The translations under genes were made by a program, and so were the position numbers. The notes beneath the pieces are model-generated. The model had not been told where the DNA came from and searched no databases. It saw only the letters and a program-made list of their open reading frames with translations. 30,874 bases of DNA from a virus: positions 1 to 30,874 of IMG/VR virus record IMGVR_UViG_3300043775_000475; one strand, written 5' to 3'. Positions 5,778 to 12,189 of the stretch are shown here, one piece after another. Positions within the stretch are counted from its first letter, which is position 1. The number at the start of each line of letters is the position of its first letter.

Positions 5778-6197
5778 CTACAAGCCCCAAGGACCGAACC
5801 CGTTACCATACCTATCATCTGCGTAGTTGTAGATGGCTAAAGCCGACCTGAGGTTGCGCTGGGGGTTGAATAGCCCCTCAGAACGCCTCACAATGCCCTT
5901 GGAGACCAGCCACGGTGTCCAGAACCCGTTCACCTGCGTCAAGCCCCTAGAACCACCTACTGGGTCGTCTGTGTTGTGCTGGTCAGGTAGACACCTGCTC
6001 TCACGCCACATCAGATAGTCCAGCGTTGGTAGTAGCGACTGTCGCCACCCTACATCAACGGCTAATTGCCACCATTGAGGGCAACGTGCTGTAGCAGGTA
6101 CATCAACCGGCTTAGGCAAGTCGTGTTTGCTTATGGAAGTGGGGGGCACGAAGCCCCCCACGAATAATGAAAGTGAAAGTATTGCTTTTGCTATCAA
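5778..6197 (-). CDS. lytic-transglycosylase-like (SLT) protein with signal sequence
   Basis: A 139-residue protein with a hydrophobic N-terminus (AKAILSLSLFVGGF, residues 3-16) resembling a signal peptide or anchor, followed by a short lysozyme-fold domain. W-R-E-S (Glu66, Ser67) matches SLT motif I with the catalytic Glu, and S-R-G-L-T-Q-V-N (83-90) matches the G-L-x-Q motif II. It would cut the glycan strand of peptidoglycan, but exported and cell-associated rather than holin-dependent. The start is TTG at 6197, with AAGGAG eight bases upstream and TTGA overlap with the preceding stop. A GC-rich inverted repeat lies inside the coding region at 6139-6161. Finding a wall hydrolase in the non-structural block, away from the endolysin, is unusual. 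Confidence 0.7.
   Translation of the reverse strand: MIAKAILSLSLFVGGFVPPTSISKHDLPKPVDVPATARCPQWWQLAVDVGWRQSLLPTLDYLMWRESRCLPDQHNTDDPVGGSRGLTQVNGFWTPWLVSKGIVRRSEGLFNPQRNLRSALAIYNYADDRYGNGFGPWGL
6139..6161 (-). repeat. GC-rich 9-bp hairpin inside a coding sequence
   Basis: GTGGGGGGC-ACGAA-GCCCCCCAC, a perfect nine-base inverted repeat with a five-base loop. It lies in codons 13-20 of the transglycosylase-like gene, just after the hydrophobic segment. The fold would be very stable in mRNA and could slow ribosomes during export or mark a former intergenic hairpin. Confidence 0.7.
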
Positions 6198-6418: not shown

Positions 6419-6930
6419 GGCAATTGCCTTTCTGTTTCTGTTGTGGATGAGACTTTTAGTGCACGAACAATATCGTACATATCTCGCATGGCATTTGCTA
6501 ATGAGCCTCTTGCGTTACCTTGGTCGTATGTAACGTCTTTCTCACCCTTGAATCGGATGGATGAACCCATCTGACCTCTGTGGCAAAGAGTTGTAAGACG
6601 AACACGCTTACGCTCAGGATGTTTGCTAGGTGCAATTTCATCATCGTCACTGTTGTTGATTGGTGCAGCCCAACCAACAGTACTGACTGCGAAACCGCTG
6701 TAACCAGTATCAAACAACATAACTGCGTTGAATGTGTCGTCAAGCATTTCATAAACATCTGCGTCTTCTGCGATTTGCTTGATGACTGGAACTTCACCAC
6801 GAATGTAATCAACAGCAAATAATATCGCTGGTGATTGCTCGAATGAGTTTTCTAGTTTGTCTGCTATTGCTTGGTCAATCTCACGAAGAGTTTGGTCAAA
6901 CTTTTCTGAATATGTAATTGCATTTTTCAT
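6415..6930 (-). CDS. hypothetical protein
   Basis: Unrecognised 171-residue protein. The first half is acidic and helical. The middle has a hydrophobic stretch (N-A-V-M-L-F-D-T-G-Y-S-G-F-A-V-S) and an acidic loop. The C-terminal third contains R-K-R-V-R-L-T-T-L-C-H-R-G and a helical end. ATG start overlaps the WhiB stop as ATGA. No enzyme motif recognised. Confidence 0.7.
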   Translation of the reverse strand: MKNAITYSEKFDQTLREIDQAIADKLENSFEQSPAILFAVDYIRGEVPVIKQIAEDADVYEMLDDTFNAVMLFDTGYSGFAVSTVGWAAPINNSDDDEIAPSKHPERKRVRLTTLCHRGQMGSSIRFKGEKDVTYDQGNARGSLANAMRDMYDIVRALKVSSTTETERQLP

Positions 6931-7178
6931 TTTCTTCTATTCTTTCTGTAGTCGGCTTTGCCGTTGGTTAGTGTGATACCGCCCCAAATGCCCCATGAGT
7001 TTGTTGCTTTGCCATAAGCAAGGCATTCATCTTTCATGACGCATTCAGAACAGATTGCTTTTGCTTGCTTCCATTCTTTCATTTTTTGTTTAGTTGGTGG
7101 CCATTCTGGAAACCACCAAATGGTTGGTTGGTCTTTGCAATTTGCTTTTGCAAAGTCTATTGCTATCGGCTCAAACAT
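6927..7178 (-). CDS. whiB: WhiB-family transcription factor
   Basis: WhiB-like iron-sulphur regulator. The 83-residue protein has the four cluster-binding cysteines Cys14, Cys43, Cys46 and Cys52 in the C-Xn-C-x2-C-x5-C pattern, and the G-I-W-G-G turn (63-67) that defines the family. A basic tail (R-K-N-R-R-K) is expected for DNA contact. WhiB proteins bind region 4 of the housekeeping sigma factor and change promoter choice, and phage copies can alter host transcription. The ATG at 7178 overlaps the upstream gene by eight bases; a TTG at 7202 would add eight residues but has no better ribosome site. Its presence is the best clue that the host is an actinobacterium. Confidence 0.9.
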   Translation of the reverse strand: MFEPIAIDFAKANCKDQPTIWWFPEWPPTKQKMKEWKQAKAICSECVMKDECLAYGKATNSWGIWGGITLTNGKADYRKNRRK

Positions 7179-7695
7179 CGGTGCTGAGTCGCAGTCTGGC
7201 AATCAATGTTTCTAGCACTCTCTCTGCCACATTGTTAGCCATGTTGATTGATAGTTGTTCAATCTTTTCATTGACTATTTCTTGCAGGTTCATTGATTCT
7301 ATAGACACACCGACTTGAGTGGTAATCATTGAACGGAAACGTGAGTTGTTGAGTATTGCACGTTGCAAGTTTTCATTTACGTTATCGTCATTGATTAGTT
7401 CACCAGCAATCTCTGAGTAATCCATGTCATCAAGAACGTTACGTTTGATGTCGTAGTAGTCAATTGACTCCATAACCCAGTCACGAATCTTGCGACTGAA
7501 ATCACGATTGTCAGTTACCTCTTCGGCAACCCGACTAGCAACATCTTCTGTTGTTGGTATGCGACCGGCAACTTGACGTTCAACTTGCTCAATGATTGTT
7601 GTCTCTAATGATTGGCTGAATAGTGAGGGCATTGATGCGCTGTCAAGCGATACATCAAATTCCATAACGGATGGGATAAGTTTGATTGTTGTCAT
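7171..7695 (-). CDS. hypothetical coiled-coil-like protein
   Basis: Unrecognised 174-residue, strongly acidic and helical protein, with many I/L/V-spaced segments (from about residue 28 to the end) that suggest an extended coiled coil or oligomeric structural role. ATG at 7695 with GGAGA seven bases upstream. It starts 27 bases after the amidotransferase stop and overlaps WhiB by eight bases. Function unknown. Confidence 0.7.
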   Translation of the reverse strand: MTTIKLIPSVMEFDVSLDSASMPSLFSQSLETTIIEQVERQVAGRIPTTEDVASRVAEEVTDNRDFSRKIRDWVMESIDYYDIKRNVLDDMDYSEIAGELINDDNVNENLQRAILNNSRFRSMITTQVGVSIESMNLQEIVNEKIEQLSINMANNVAERVLETLIARLRLSTDV

Positions 7696-7722: not shown

Positions 7723-8694
7723 TTAGTAGTAACTTGGGTGTGTGTTTGTGCCAGACGGAATTTCGAATCCGTAGTTAGTGGTTGGCATTTCAGGTTCTTC
7801 CCATAATGCGTCCCAACAATTGCAAGTGTCATACTGGCAGAACAAGCACGCACTGCAAATACCGCAGTGTGTGCGAATCTCATCAGCCGGGACTATCTCT
7901 TGTGTCTCGCACAAATAACACGTGACTTTGTTGTGTGTTGTACTAAATGTGTCGGTGTACAACTCTGCAATCTCAAGGCACTCGCTAAATGTTGGCGAGT
8001 GACCAAGTAGTGAAGCCTCGTCGTCATAATCATTGACAACAGATGAGCCAGACCAACTTGATGAATACCTAGTTGATTCGTAACCGTAATCCCAACCAGA
8101 ACCATACATGCCTGAGTAACTGGCATAACGAATTGGTGCTTGTTTGTACGATGAGTTTGACCACCAGATATCTGAATCCCAATGACCATCTTTCTCATTG
8201 ACGATATACCAGTCATACTTTGCATCGTCATTGACAGTTAGGAATGCGAGTTTAGAACCCTTAGCCCAATCCGCCATCTGCTGAAAGTATTCGCTGTCAT
8301 CAAGAGAACTGATACCACCGATTGCAGGCATAATATCTTCTGCAAACACTCTGGTATCTGAACGCTTCTCGTTCTTCTCCATCTTGACTGGCAGTATGCC
8401 GTTGTGACCCATAACAGTTTGACTGTCTTGACCTAACAAGAATGGGTGACAGTTATCAACGGTGTTAGTGCCGTGAGTTGTCCAACGGAAATGGAAGATT
8501 GCTGGGCCTTGCATTGTCTTGCGTGCATCAACAAACTTGTTAGCAACTTCTTCAAAGTCCATACTGCGAACAATGTGAAGTTTCTTGCCTGTTGATATTG
8601 CGAAACCAAAGCCATCAGGATTTGATTGAGCAGCAATCTTGAACCTGTCCATGTCTGGTGAGACATAATCAGGAATAAGTGTAAGTAGACACAT
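7723..8694 (-). CDS. class II (Ntn) glutamine amidotransferase
   Basis: Predicted glutaminase domain of the class II type, which releases ammonia from glutamine using an N-terminal cysteine. The 323-residue protein begins Met-Cys, so Cys2 becomes the nucleophile after Met removal. Family motifs follow in order: N-P-D-G-F-G-F-A (25-32), F-R-W-T-T-H-G-T (69-76, substrate-binding Arg70), N-C-H-P-F (81-85) and G-H-N-G (96-99, oxyanion Asn98). No synthetase domain is fused. Residues about 190-235 are Ser/Tyr/Gly-rich and disordered, and the C-terminal third has eight or more cysteines in C-x2-C pairs, a probable zinc ribbon. The separate ligase for its ammonia is probably the amidoligase just upstream. 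Shine-Dalgarno AAAGGA. Confidence 0.85.
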   Translation of the reverse strand: MCLLTLIPDYVSPDMDRFKIAAQSNPDGFGFAISTGKKLHIVRSMDFEEVANKFVDARKTMQGPAIFHFRWTTHGTNTVDNCHPFLLGQDSQTVMGHNGILPVKMEKNEKRSDTRVFAEDIMPAIGGISSLDDSEYFQQMADWAKGSKLAFLTVNDDAKYDWYIVNEKDGHWDSDIWWSNSSYKQAPIRYASYSGMYGSGWDYGYESTRYSSSWSGSSVVNDYDDEASLLGHSPTFSECLEIAELYTDTFSTTHNKVTCYLCETQEIVPADEIRTHCGICSACLFCQYDTCNCWDALWEEPEMPTTNYGFEIPSGTNTHPSYY

Positions 8695-8708
8695 GTGGTG
8701 TCCTTTCT

Positions 8709-8728
8709 GTGGGGGCTTGCGCCCCCAC
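8709..8728 (-). promoter_or_regulatory. leader hairpin next to the amidotransferase ribosome site
   Basis: GTGGGGGC-TTGC-GCCCCCAC, a perfect eight-base GC-rich inverted repeat. In the minus-strand mRNA it ends about three bases before the AAAGGA ribosome site of the gene starting at 8694. No T-run follows, so a leader role (mRNA protection or translation control) is likelier than termination. Confidence 0.65.
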
Positions 8729-8753
8729 GGTTGTGTGTGTATTTGTTTGTATG

Positions 8754-8772
8754 TAGTAAGACGGTCTTACTA
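8754..8772 (-). repeat. 17-bp palindrome, copy 1 of 6
   Basis: TAGTAAGACGGTCTTACTA. It overlaps the amidoligase stop codon and lies 60 bases before the amidotransferase start. This copy matches the 17-bp core exactly. The other copies are at 9916, 11339, 11685, 12171 and 12223. Confidence 0.8.
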
Positions 8773-9792
8773 AATTACTTTCTCTGCAATACGATGACGA
8801 AGAATCTCAAAGCGTGGTGAGTTGATTGCAGTCAGCCACGAACTAAATGCAGGGAACAACAAGCCACCTTGCACAGCCTGTCGTGTCTCAACATCTTTCG
8901 TGTACTCAAACGATGCTTGAGCAAACTGCAAAGCAGCCTGAACAGTCACAGGATTGAGTGATGGACGGAAAAAACGCAACTCGATAGTTGCTGAGTTCTG
9001 CAAATTGACAGCAAGGTAACGGCGATTGTTATGCACGTAACCTTTAGCCATTGACAGAAGCGTTGTTCCCTTGACCATATCAGGACTATCCCAATCGCTG
9101 TAACTGTTGAGGAACTGGTTCATGTCAAATGCAGCGAACTGTCGTGACTCACGACCAGCGAACTTGACAAGTGGCTCACGATTCTTGAAGATGAAGTAGA
9201 TGAACTTCATCAAGTGTGCTTCGTTGATGAACGAGTTGCGTGACAGATGCAAATGCAAACCGCACGAACTTGCTTTCCACGAATGGAAACCCATTGTCTT
9301 GAGACCAGACAATGCTTCCCACTTGAAGTCATTCATATAGAACTCCAATGTGCCCGGCTGAGTAACAATCTCGAATCCGTAACCAAGTGACGCATCAGTC
9401 TTGAGATGAAGAACATCTACATCACCGATACGAGAAGTGTTGATTACATGACGAGCACCAGCGTGCAAATCACCATTGACACACTCTGTCTCAATCTCTG
9501 CACCAATGTACAACTCTGGTGTCAGAGTATTGGTCTTAGATGTTGAGTAAGTATCAACGAGACGATACGCACTACCGAAGTCGTTACCCTTGTGACAGAA
9601 CACGAGACGGAACTTGTCGGAGTAACCGTGAATCAATCTGCCCTCTTCTGGCTCGTAATCATCGAGACATGAATTGGAACAGAAGTGATGACCATCATCA
9701 CTCTCGTACGAATCACTTTCGTGAATTGTGTCCTCGCAAACGAAACAGTTGTAGTATCCGTCTTCGTCTGCTTCTTGACGTTGTCTTGGCAT
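8770..9792 (-). CDS. Amidoligase_2-family ligase with N-terminal zinc-binding segment
   Basis: Predicted ATP-dependent carboxylate-amine/ammonia ligase of the glutamine-synthetase-like fold (Amidoligase_2). The 340-residue protein has Y-I-G-A-E-I-E-T-E (Glu99, Glu101) for metal and ATP, K-T-D-A-S-L-G-Y-G-F-E-I-V (Asp133, Glu141), G-L-H-L-H-L-S (His180, His182) and A-T-I-E-L-R-F-F-R (Glu271, Arg273). These are the motifs and order expected for the family. An N-terminal segment with Cys16, Cys19, Cys38 and Cys42 looks like a zinc ribbon. The ATG at 9792 has AGAGG five bases upstream; an in-frame start at 9849 would sit in the leader palindromes. Next to a class II glutaminase it may amidate an unknown acid, peptide or protein. 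Confidence 0.8.
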   Translation of the reverse strand: MPRQRQEADEDGYYNCFVCEDTIHESDSYESDDGHHFCSNSCLDDYEPEEGRLIHGYSDKFRLVFCHKGNDFGSAYRLVDTYSTSKTNTLTPELYIGAEIETECVNGDLHAGARHVINTSRIGDVDVLHLKTDASLGYGFEIVTQPGTLEFYMNDFKWEALSGLKTMGFHSWKASSCGLHLHLSRNSFINEAHLMKFIYFIFKNREPLVKFAGRESRQFAAFDMNQFLNSYSDWDSPDMVKGTTLLSMAKGYVHNNRRYLAVNLQNSATIELRFFRPSLNPVTVQAALQFAQASFEYTKDVETRQAVQGGLLFPAFSSWLTAINSPRFEILRHRIAEKVI

Positions 9793-9842: not shown

Positions 9843-9861
9843 TGTTCATTGCCGATGAACA
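9843..9861 (-). repeat. leader palindrome overlapping a predicted -10 box
   Basis: TGTTCAT-TGCCG-ATGAACA, seven-base perfect arms. It covers most of the TATGTT -10 box of the promoter proposed at 9858-9887, so a protein bound here could block transcription of the amidoligase gene. Confidence 0.55.
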
Positions 9862-9914: not shown

Positions 9915-9933
9915 CAGTAAGATGGTCTTACTG
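9915..9933 (-). repeat. 17-bp palindrome, copy 2 of 6
   Basis: CAGTAAGATGGTCTTACTG, eight-base arms around a three-base centre. It differs from the other copies at the centre base (T for C). A TTGACA (minus strand, ending inside the palindrome) overlaps its upstream edge. Confidence 0.75.
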
Positions 9934-10342: not shown

Positions 10343-10500
10343 TTTTGTTCCTCTGTTTCTTTGTTGAGTTTTACAATAATTTCTTCAGCATAAATACGCT
10401 GTCTCTGTGATTCGTTGTACGCATTGACCATTCCCCAAGCGAACTCAACGAGTTCGTCTTTCCTCATTGCATACAACGATGACTTTGTACTGCTATTCAT
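10339..10500 (-). CDS. hypothetical small protein
   Basis: Unrecognised 53-residue helical protein (L-V-E-F-A-W-G-M-V-N-A-Y-N-E-S-Q-R, then an acidic-basic C-terminal helix). The ATG at 10500 overlaps the phosphatase stop as TAATG; an in-frame start at 10530 would sit inside that gene. Function unknown. Confidence 0.6.
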   Translation of the reverse strand: MNSSTKSSLYAMRKDELVEFAWGMVNAYNESQRQRIYAEEIIVKLNKETEEQK

Positions 10501-10901
10501 TAGAAATCCCCATCTGCTACTTGCAAGCAAGTTAGCCCTAGTTCACGCCACATACTGACAACTTTATTTCTGTCATCAAATACACAAAGAACATCTCTGT
10601 GAGCAATGTGCACCTGATAAATTTCTTTTTTGACAATCTCATCTGGTCTGTCATCATCAGAATCTCGCATGTACAATTCTTTCAAATCGAAGCCCTGCTG
10701 TTTTAGCCACATGACCGTTTGAGGCATACAAACATCTTTGCGACCAGACACAAAAATCAAATCATTCCAATCTTCCAATTGCATTAGCAATTTGATGATT
10801 GGTTTGTTTGGTTTGTCATTGATTACATTGAACCAATCGTAGGGATTGCGTTCCCCACGAAGAGCAATCGTTCCGTCAATATCAACAATGATGCAACTCA
10901 T
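10500..10901 (-). CDS. HAD-superfamily phosphatase (polynucleotide 3'-phosphatase-like)
   Basis: A 133-residue HAD-fold hydrolase. Motif I is V-D-I-D-G-T (Asp7 nucleophile, Asp9), motif II F-V-S-G-R (Ser52), motif III lysine is in V-K-K-E-I-Y (91-92), and motif IV F-D-D-R (Asp109, Asp110) is followed by N-K-V-V-S-M-W-R. The spacing and the S-G-R and D-D-R contexts resemble the 3'-phosphatase domain of T4 polynucleotide kinase (PseT), but without a kinase domain. It could trim 3'-phosphates from cut RNA or DNA, or act on nucleotides. The ATG at 10901 overlaps the upstream stop as ATGA and has GGAG seven to eight bases before it. Confidence 0.82.
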   Translation of the reverse strand: MSCIIVDIDGTIALRGERNPYDWFNVINDKPNKPIIKLLMQLEDWNDLIFVSGRKDVCMPQTVMWLKQQGFDLKELYMRDSDDDRPDEIVKKEIYQVHIAHRDVLCVFDDRNKVVSMWRELGLTCLQVADGDF

Positions 10902-11053
10902 TCCCACTCTCCATTCGCTGGATGATTACGCATAACCCACTGGCGATACATATACGAATCTTTCTCTGCTTGCTCGTAACCCCACTCGTATGCGAAACCC
11001 CACACGAGTAGAACGATAATCATTGCCATCGTAAACAATCCGAACCAGTTCAT
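10898..11053 (-). CDS. 51-residue single-pass membrane protein
   Basis: A small gene filling the apparent gap between two longer ones. Residues 2-22 form one hydrophobic helix (L-F-T-M-A-M-I-I-V-L-L-V-W-G-F); the rest is polar and aromatic (Y-E-W-G-Y-E-Q, later Y-M-Y-R-Q-W). Start overlaps the upstream stop as ATGA, and its own stop overlaps the phosphatase ATG as ATGA. No signal-peptidase site is evident, so it is probably an inner-membrane protein with a cytoplasmic or periplasmic tail. Role unknown. Confidence 0.7.
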   Translation of the reverse strand: MNWFGLFTMAMIIVLLVWGFAYEWGYEQAEKDSYMYRQWVMRNHPANGEWE

Positions 11054-11329: not shown

Positions 11330-11364
11330 GAGTTCACCAATAAGATGGTCTTACTGATGAACTC
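11330..11364 (-). repeat. palindrome copy 3 of 6 within a 16-bp RNA hairpin
   Basis: The 17-bp core (11339-11355) is extended to a 35-base inverted repeat. In minus-strand RNA the arms GAGUUCAUCAGUAAGA and UCUUAUUGGUGAACUC pair along all 16 positions, two of them as G-U wobbles, around a CCA loop. On the plus strand these two positions are A-C mismatches, so the fold favours the minus-strand transcript. Confidence 0.75.
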
Positions 11365-11682: not shown

Positions 11683-11703
11683 TCAGTAAGACGGTCTTAC
11701 TGA
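11683..11703 (-). repeat. 17-bp palindrome, copy 4 of 6
   Basis: TCAGTAAGACGGTCTTACTGA, nine-base perfect arms around CGG. It lies two bases downstream of the stop of the gene at 11705-12142 and about 110 bases before the next start at 11573. Confidence 0.8.
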
Positions 11704-12169: not shown

Positions 12170-12189
12170 TAGTAAGACGGTCTTACTAA
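12169..12189 (-). repeat. 17-bp palindrome, copy 5 of 6
   Basis: TTAGTAAGACGGTCTTACTAA, nine-base perfect arms around CGG. A minus-strand TTGACT at 12211-12206 stands 17 bases before TAGTAA (12188-12183), so the palindrome may overlap a weak -10 box. Confidence 0.8.

Follow-up and report, generated by a model that had tools for sequence, protein, structure and literature searches.

The window, by which we mean the whole 30,874-nt stretch of viral DNA that was analysed, is a fragment with a GC content of about 44–45%, in which the left arm carries a primase, a DnaB-type helicase and a PD-(D/E)XK exonuclease and the right arm the terminase, portal, capsid and tail genes. On its minus strand lie two adjacent genes, transcribed in the order ligase, then glutaminase, with a gap of 75 nt: an Amidoligase_2 (glutamine-synthetase-like) ligase of 340 aa (8770..9792) and a class II, Ntn-type glutamine amidotransferase or glutaminase of 323 aa (7723..8694). 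The open frame of the ligase ends with the stop at 8770 and reaches back to an in-frame ATG at 9849. We place the start at 9792 instead, because residues M20-P21 are nearly invariant in the family alignment and would form the Met-Pro start, and because AGAGG, which resembles a ribosome-binding site, lies 7 nt upstream of it. The span of 7723-9792 given for the pair in a preliminary description, made from the DNA letters, is correct. The glutaminase opens with Met-Cys, as is expected of an Ntn hydrolase, and its start is preceded by GAAAGGA.

The ligase scores 22.3 bits against Pfam Amidoligase_2 (PF12224; cut-off 22), or 22.7 bits in a whole-genome search, and the glutaminase reaches 19.7 bits against GATase_4, below the cut-off of 23. 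With the one barely above its threshold and the other beneath it, single-sequence evidence alone is thin; the evidence from the families, however, is strong. Amidoligase_2 is matched by 68 of 76 relatives of the ligase, the best at 5.7e-33, and the window protein itself matches phrog_16683 at 1.4e-25. Its AlphaFold model (pLDDT 87.9, pTM 0.81) has a core that overlays with glutamine synthetase at Z 11.9 over 182 residues and 3.2 Å, and with the carboxylate-amine ligase YbdK at Z 11.8 over 215 residues. The catalytic core (8890..9510, minus strand), delimited from conservation and the structural match, contains E118-x-E120, D152, E160, H199-x-H201, R233, N282 and E290-x-R292. Across 99 dereplicated pairs and the window, E290 and R292 are present in 100/100, and E118, E120, D152, E160, H199, R233 and N282 in 98–99/100. 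Profiles and modelled structure thus place the protein in the Amidoligase_2 family, with a glutamine-synthetase fold and the ExE, HxH and ExR motifs, and it is predicted to be an ATP-dependent former of amide bonds.

For the glutaminase, GATase_4 is matched at E<=1e-3 by 58 of 69 relatives, a search of the PDB with the family profile reaches GlmS at E = 7e-10, and the window protein matches phrog_25883 at 1.2e-41. The AlphaFold model (pLDDT 83.7) is confident in the catalytic and tail domains and disordered in the linker between them, and its best fold matches are GlmS (Z 14.3), EgtC (Z 14.1) and PurF (Z 13.1); a likeness to ATP-grasp subdomains of solved structures, at Z about 5, was taken as background. 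The Ntn domain, defined by residue conservation (8143..8691, minus strand), holds the nucleophile Cys2 (codon 8689-8691), R70, N98-G99 and D113. C2, R70, T73, N98 and G99 are kept in 100/100 of the same set of pairs with the window, and D113 in 99/100. Residue conservation and the model assign the downstream gene to the class II glutaminases, with an Ntn fold, a Cys2 nucleophile and an Asn-Gly oxyanion hole.

Both proteins also bear cysteine-rich modules. The ligase has a predicted zinc-binding head, similar to a LIM domain or zinc ribbon (9667..9747, minus strand), whose cysteines, numbered in the 359-aa frame, recur throughout the family (C35 in 75/76, C38 in 72/76, C57 in 70/76 and C61 in 69/76); the family profile matches LIM domains with E 1.8e-4. 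The glutaminase ends in a tail with C259, C262, C277, C280, C283, C286, C291 and C293 (7816..7920, minus strand), which is predicted to form a small zinc-binding domain: its cysteines are conserved, and the pLDDT is about 85–95 for residues 231-290. The preliminary description had named both enzyme families, the motifs of the upstream gene, Cys2, Arg70 and Asn98 of the downstream one, the zinc-ribbon-like head and the cysteine-rich tail, and the profile matches, folds and conservation given above bear out each of these assignments. A homology between the head of the ligase and the tail of the glutaminase was considered and rejected, as only a weak match of cysteine patterns was found (hhalign probability 5.5%).

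The adjacency of the two genes is near-obligate. Relatives were gathered with each gene separately and the neighbour ignored, the best 80 per gene being taken from IMG/VR. An Amidoligase_2 gene adjoins the glutaminase on the same strand in 80/80 of the best glutaminase relatives, and a glutaminase adjoins the ligase in 79/80 of the best ligase relatives, the one exception being a contig that stops 214 nt past the ligase; the usual spacing in these loci is -1 to 80 nt. A survey of bacteria, restricted to one genome per species, found 35 relatives, spread over Bacteroidota, Bacillota, Bifidobacterium, Brachyspira, Victivallis and other taxa; many of them have neighbours of prophage type. The ligase is adjacent in about 31 of the 35; a contig end truncates two loci (L205 and L208), and in one Bifidobacterium genome (L210) the glutaminase truly stands alone. 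A glutaminase with no detectable ligase is likewise seen in a second Bifidobacterium locus (L013), and the Clostridioides phage AR1086-1 (L016) has a ligase with no glutaminase nearby. Among named phages, the pair occurs in Marvin-type mycobacteriophages, MEP401/402, ctgrD200 and two human-gut contigs. In the Bifidobacterium phage BP677P1 (L179, 1912-2924), the amidoligase that adjoins the glutaminase lies in two separate reading frames, divided near 2682; gene decay, an error in sequencing or a site of frameshifting could account for this.

Dereplication at 80% left 99 pairs, for which a gap of < 300 nt was demanded. The ligase comes first in 95/99, with a median gap of 11 nt; three viral contigs (L081, L084 and L085) have the reversed order, yet the genes remain adjacent. 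The distance matrices of the two families correlate at r = 0.842 over the 99 pairs, where the best of 1000 permutations gave 0.157. Such parallel divergence can arise from the common inheritance of neighbours alone, and shared inheritance contributes here. Near-obligate adjacency, near-constant order and parallel divergence together nevertheless lead us to regard the ligase and the glutaminase as a single functional unit.

The make-up of this unit varies within the family. The smallest members, found in Bacteroidales prophages, consist of the glutamine-synthetase core and the Ntn domain only, to which most phage versions add zinc heads and cysteine-rich tails; Bifidobacterium pairs have the head and no tail. 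As the Bacteroidales versions do without them, we take the zinc modules to be accessory, probably serving for docking or substrate binding. A strict co-occurrence of the two modules was considered (Fisher p = 0.003 over the 99 pairs) and set aside, since it is confounded by ancestry and the CxxC rule used miscounts the window's own head. The number of ligases also varies. A second ligase lies upstream in the close relatives L027 (1772-2584), L030 (1624-2430), L031 (1632-2447), L040 (1617-2423) and L048 (1742-2392), the short paralogues of L027 and L030 being missed by Pfam and caught by the family profile. A Brachyspira locus (L211, 4065-8387) has three ligases around one glutaminase, and L196 also belongs to the loci with two or three. 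Several ligases beside a single glutaminase would fit a shared donor of ammonia. The two genes are hence the core, with zinc modules and extra ligases optional.

The pair has been described before, in OM43 phages, Marvin, tf, UFV-P2/LUZ24, phiEco32 and RIO-1-like podoviruses, and the idea of an amide-forming system has previously been put forward for it in these other phages. Among the closest known systems is that of the mycobacteriophage Marvin (Marvinvirus), in which gp105/gp106 are the same two genes in the same order and strand, with cysteine-rich modules in both; identity to the window is 42% for the glutaminase and about 30–35% for the ligase. Marvin differs in having a longer ligase with a C-terminal extension, and its 65-kb genome has the pair at the right end; the annotation of both proteins goes no further than 'glutamine amidotransferase domain protein'. 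The phages MEP401 and MEP402 of OM43 (Methylophilales) also have an adjacent pair with the ligase first, before primase, helicase and polymerase, although their host is Gram-negative, the ligase head is much longer and the glutaminase lacks the full cysteine-rich tail; there, amidoligase and GATase have been treated as auxiliary metabolic genes (PMC10580990). The seven-gene 'peptidoglycan modification cassette' of LUZ24 and phiEco32 likewise has an Amidoligase_2 gene followed directly by a class II GATase (GATase_6), and COOH-NH2 ligase, ATP-grasp and gamma-glutamyl cyclotransferase genes are among its other members. The similarity is, however, very distant: our family profiles match phiEco32 gp84/gp83 and LUZ24 gp19, whereas LUZ24 gp18 is not matched by the ligase profile, and the glutaminases are longer. 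The 30.9-kb record, itself a fragment, has a single Amidoligase_2 gene, and its scanned proteins include no COOH-NH2 ligase, ATP-grasp or gamma-glutamyl cyclotransferase. The window pair is another compact two-gene form, as in Marvin and MEP402, and its relation to the larger cassettes is distant.

It is instructive to consider where the pair stands. It belongs to a leftward operon of early type, alongside the primase, helicase and exonuclease genes, and is followed there by a conserved 174-aa protein, a WhiB-like regulator (6927..7202, minus strand; Pfam Whib 1.5e-9), a further two small proteins and one that is secreted and lysozyme-like. A WhiB-type gene lies downstream of the pair in 45 of 68 dereplicated loci, on more than one phage backbone, and its presence in the window points to a host among the Actinomycetota; no isolate close enough to name the host below the phylum was found, and blastn of the pair region against named phages gave no match. 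The pair stands before the replication genes in MEP402 and LUZ24 as well, and its placement argues for action early in infection. Of the other genes in this region, the one at 5778-6197 (minus strand), about 1.5 kb downstream of the pair, encodes the secreted lysozyme- or transglycosylase-like protein, with a start resembling a signal peptide and a weak SLT_3 match (3.1e-5, below the cut-off); a same-strand relative lies downstream of the pair in 23 of the 68 loci. Upstream of the pair, at 10500-10907 (minus strand), is a HAD-type polynucleotide 3'-phosphatase domain (HAD_PNKP, 4.1e-45) with no kinase domain.

We tentatively propose, with confidence only a little above even, that the pair is one two-subunit enzyme, a phage glutamine-dependent amidotransferase expressed together with the early replication genes. 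In this model the two proteins would form a complex, in which the Ntn subunit would use Cys2 to cleave the side-chain amide of glutamine, and the glutamine-synthetase-fold subunit would, with ATP, activate a carboxylate to an acyl phosphate. The freed ammonia would then displace the phosphate and leave a carboxamide. MurT/GatD and AsnB/LtsA, in which a ligase and a glutaminase amidate a carboxylate of the wall peptide, illustrate a way in which the pair could act, although their ligase folds are unrelated (Mur ligase and AsnB), GatD is a class I glutaminase and neither is homologous to the pair as a system. MurT/GatD is a peptidoglycan-amidating enzyme (PMC3267633). As the pair spans very different hosts, in phages and prophages of Actinomycetota, Pseudomonadota, Bacteroidota, Bacillota and Brachyspira, the acceptor would be one common to bacteria. 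A carboxylate of the peptidoglycan stem peptide or of its precursor appears the most plausible, and protection against superinfecting phages could be the benefit. A role in the cell wall and in superinfection exclusion has been proposed for the pair in Marvin, MEP401/402, LUZ24 and phiEco32, and three later papers (PMC10580990, PMC5498523, PMC11318856) attribute the peptidoglycan proposal for phiEco32 to Iyer et al. 2009. A broader and more speculative version, to which we give rather modest credence, is that the pair represents the minimal and almost universal core of an amidating enzyme that rewrites a widely common bacterial substrate early in infection, most simply the stem-peptide carboxylate, as a general device for superinfection exclusion or for the timing of lysis.

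The preliminary description had likewise interpreted both genes as parts of a single candidate amide-forming system, and had offered a host or virion protein, a wall peptide or a metabolite as its target. Its one-system reading stands, since the genes are linked in almost all relatives and the catalytic residues are invariant or nearly so; neither a lack of a profile match to Amidoligase_2 nor unlinked relatives with variable residues was found. The virion protein, by contrast, is the least likely of these targets, as an early replication operon away from the structural genes argues against such a modification. That no substrate gene is evident also holds more widely: across lineages, no third, substrate-like gene recurs beside the pair, the actinophages showing only WhiB, replication and family-specific short genes there, and the neighbours in bacterial genomes are a repressor or other prophage genes, none of which names a substrate.

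The weakest step of the amidotransferase reading is which amide the Ntn subunit cleaves, because EgtC, a hydrolase whose substrate is a gamma-glutamyl amide different from glutamine, is structurally as near to the glutaminase as GlmS is. The ligase is similarly placed, its nearest matches including YbdK, of the glutamate-cysteine ligase type, at a Z almost equal to that of glutamine synthetase. The pair could then run a gamma-glutamyl cycle rather than amidate a carboxylate: an amine or peptide would receive glutamate, or a different amino acid, from the ligase and later lose a gamma-glutamyl group to the EgtC-like Ntn enzyme, and would thereby be protected, trapped or edited. The related LUZ24/phiEco32 cassettes do hold a gamma-glutamyl cyclotransferase and an ATP-grasp ligase (PMC5498523), yet neither gene was seen beside the pair in the window, Marvin or MEP402, and we consider such a cycle unlikely. 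R70, N98, G99 and D113 are all kept, yet these residues bind the glutamyl part in both types of enzyme and so do not discriminate between them.

A target of another kind, such as a defence protein, a component of transcription or translation, or a nucleic acid of the host, would give the zinc modules a role in recognition, and their presence in most members, the early context of expression and the wide range of hosts are consistent with this. The compact Bacteroidales versions nevertheless do without such modules, and genes for DNA hypermodification were not found in the window, so that we hold this account, too, to be rather improbable. That the two genes act independently and are neighbours only through common phage ancestry seems very improbable indeed: many of the loci do come from related actinophages with a shared gene order, yet adjacency persists in the phages and prophages of unrelated hosts and in the three contigs with reversed order, and its occurrence by chance across 99 dereplicated pairs is negligible. 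On the amidotransferase reading, the substrate should be one common to most bacteria. The pair is among the best-conserved unexplained two-gene units of tailed phages, with members in hundreds of environmental phages, above all actinophages bearing WhiB, and in gut prophages; guesses at its function date back to 2009. Marvin, a phage of Mycobacterium smegmatis, provides a cultured model.

Separate from the genes themselves, the early operon carries a set of short palindromes. A 17-bp palindrome, AGTAAGA-CCG-TCTTACT, overlaps the stop codon of the ligase at its junction with the glutaminase (8755..8771, minus strand), a second copy lies upstream of the ligase gene (9916..9932, minus strand) and further copies are found at 11339-11355, 11685-11701, 12171-12187 and 12223-12239. 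These six, of the form AGTAAGA-CC[AG]-TCTTACT, all lie between genes of the operon in one orientation, two of them with one mismatch in an arm; 14 matches are counted over both strands, against 0.11 expected. Other phages with the pair have arrays that are built alike and internally constant but of another sequence (TGATAGA, TGCCGTA, TGTACGA, TGTATTA, TGTCTGA, TGGTCGG and more), frequently placed precisely where the ligase and glutaminase genes meet; such phages include L042, L129, L144, L166, L167, L170, L171, L174, L175 and others. At least three copies of one palindrome with 7-bp arms occur in 65 of 160 loci (not dereplicated), against 0 of 160 shuffles. The palindromes resemble operators or stoperators particular to each phage, or else hairpins in the RNA where genes meet, and these arrays may be more novel than the gene pair. 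Just upstream of the glutaminase ribosome-binding site, a GC-rich hairpin of 10 pairs (8707-8730; CTGTGGGGGC-TTGC-GCCCCCACGG on the plus strand) is kept in the relative L003 and is possibly an element of translation or RNA processing.
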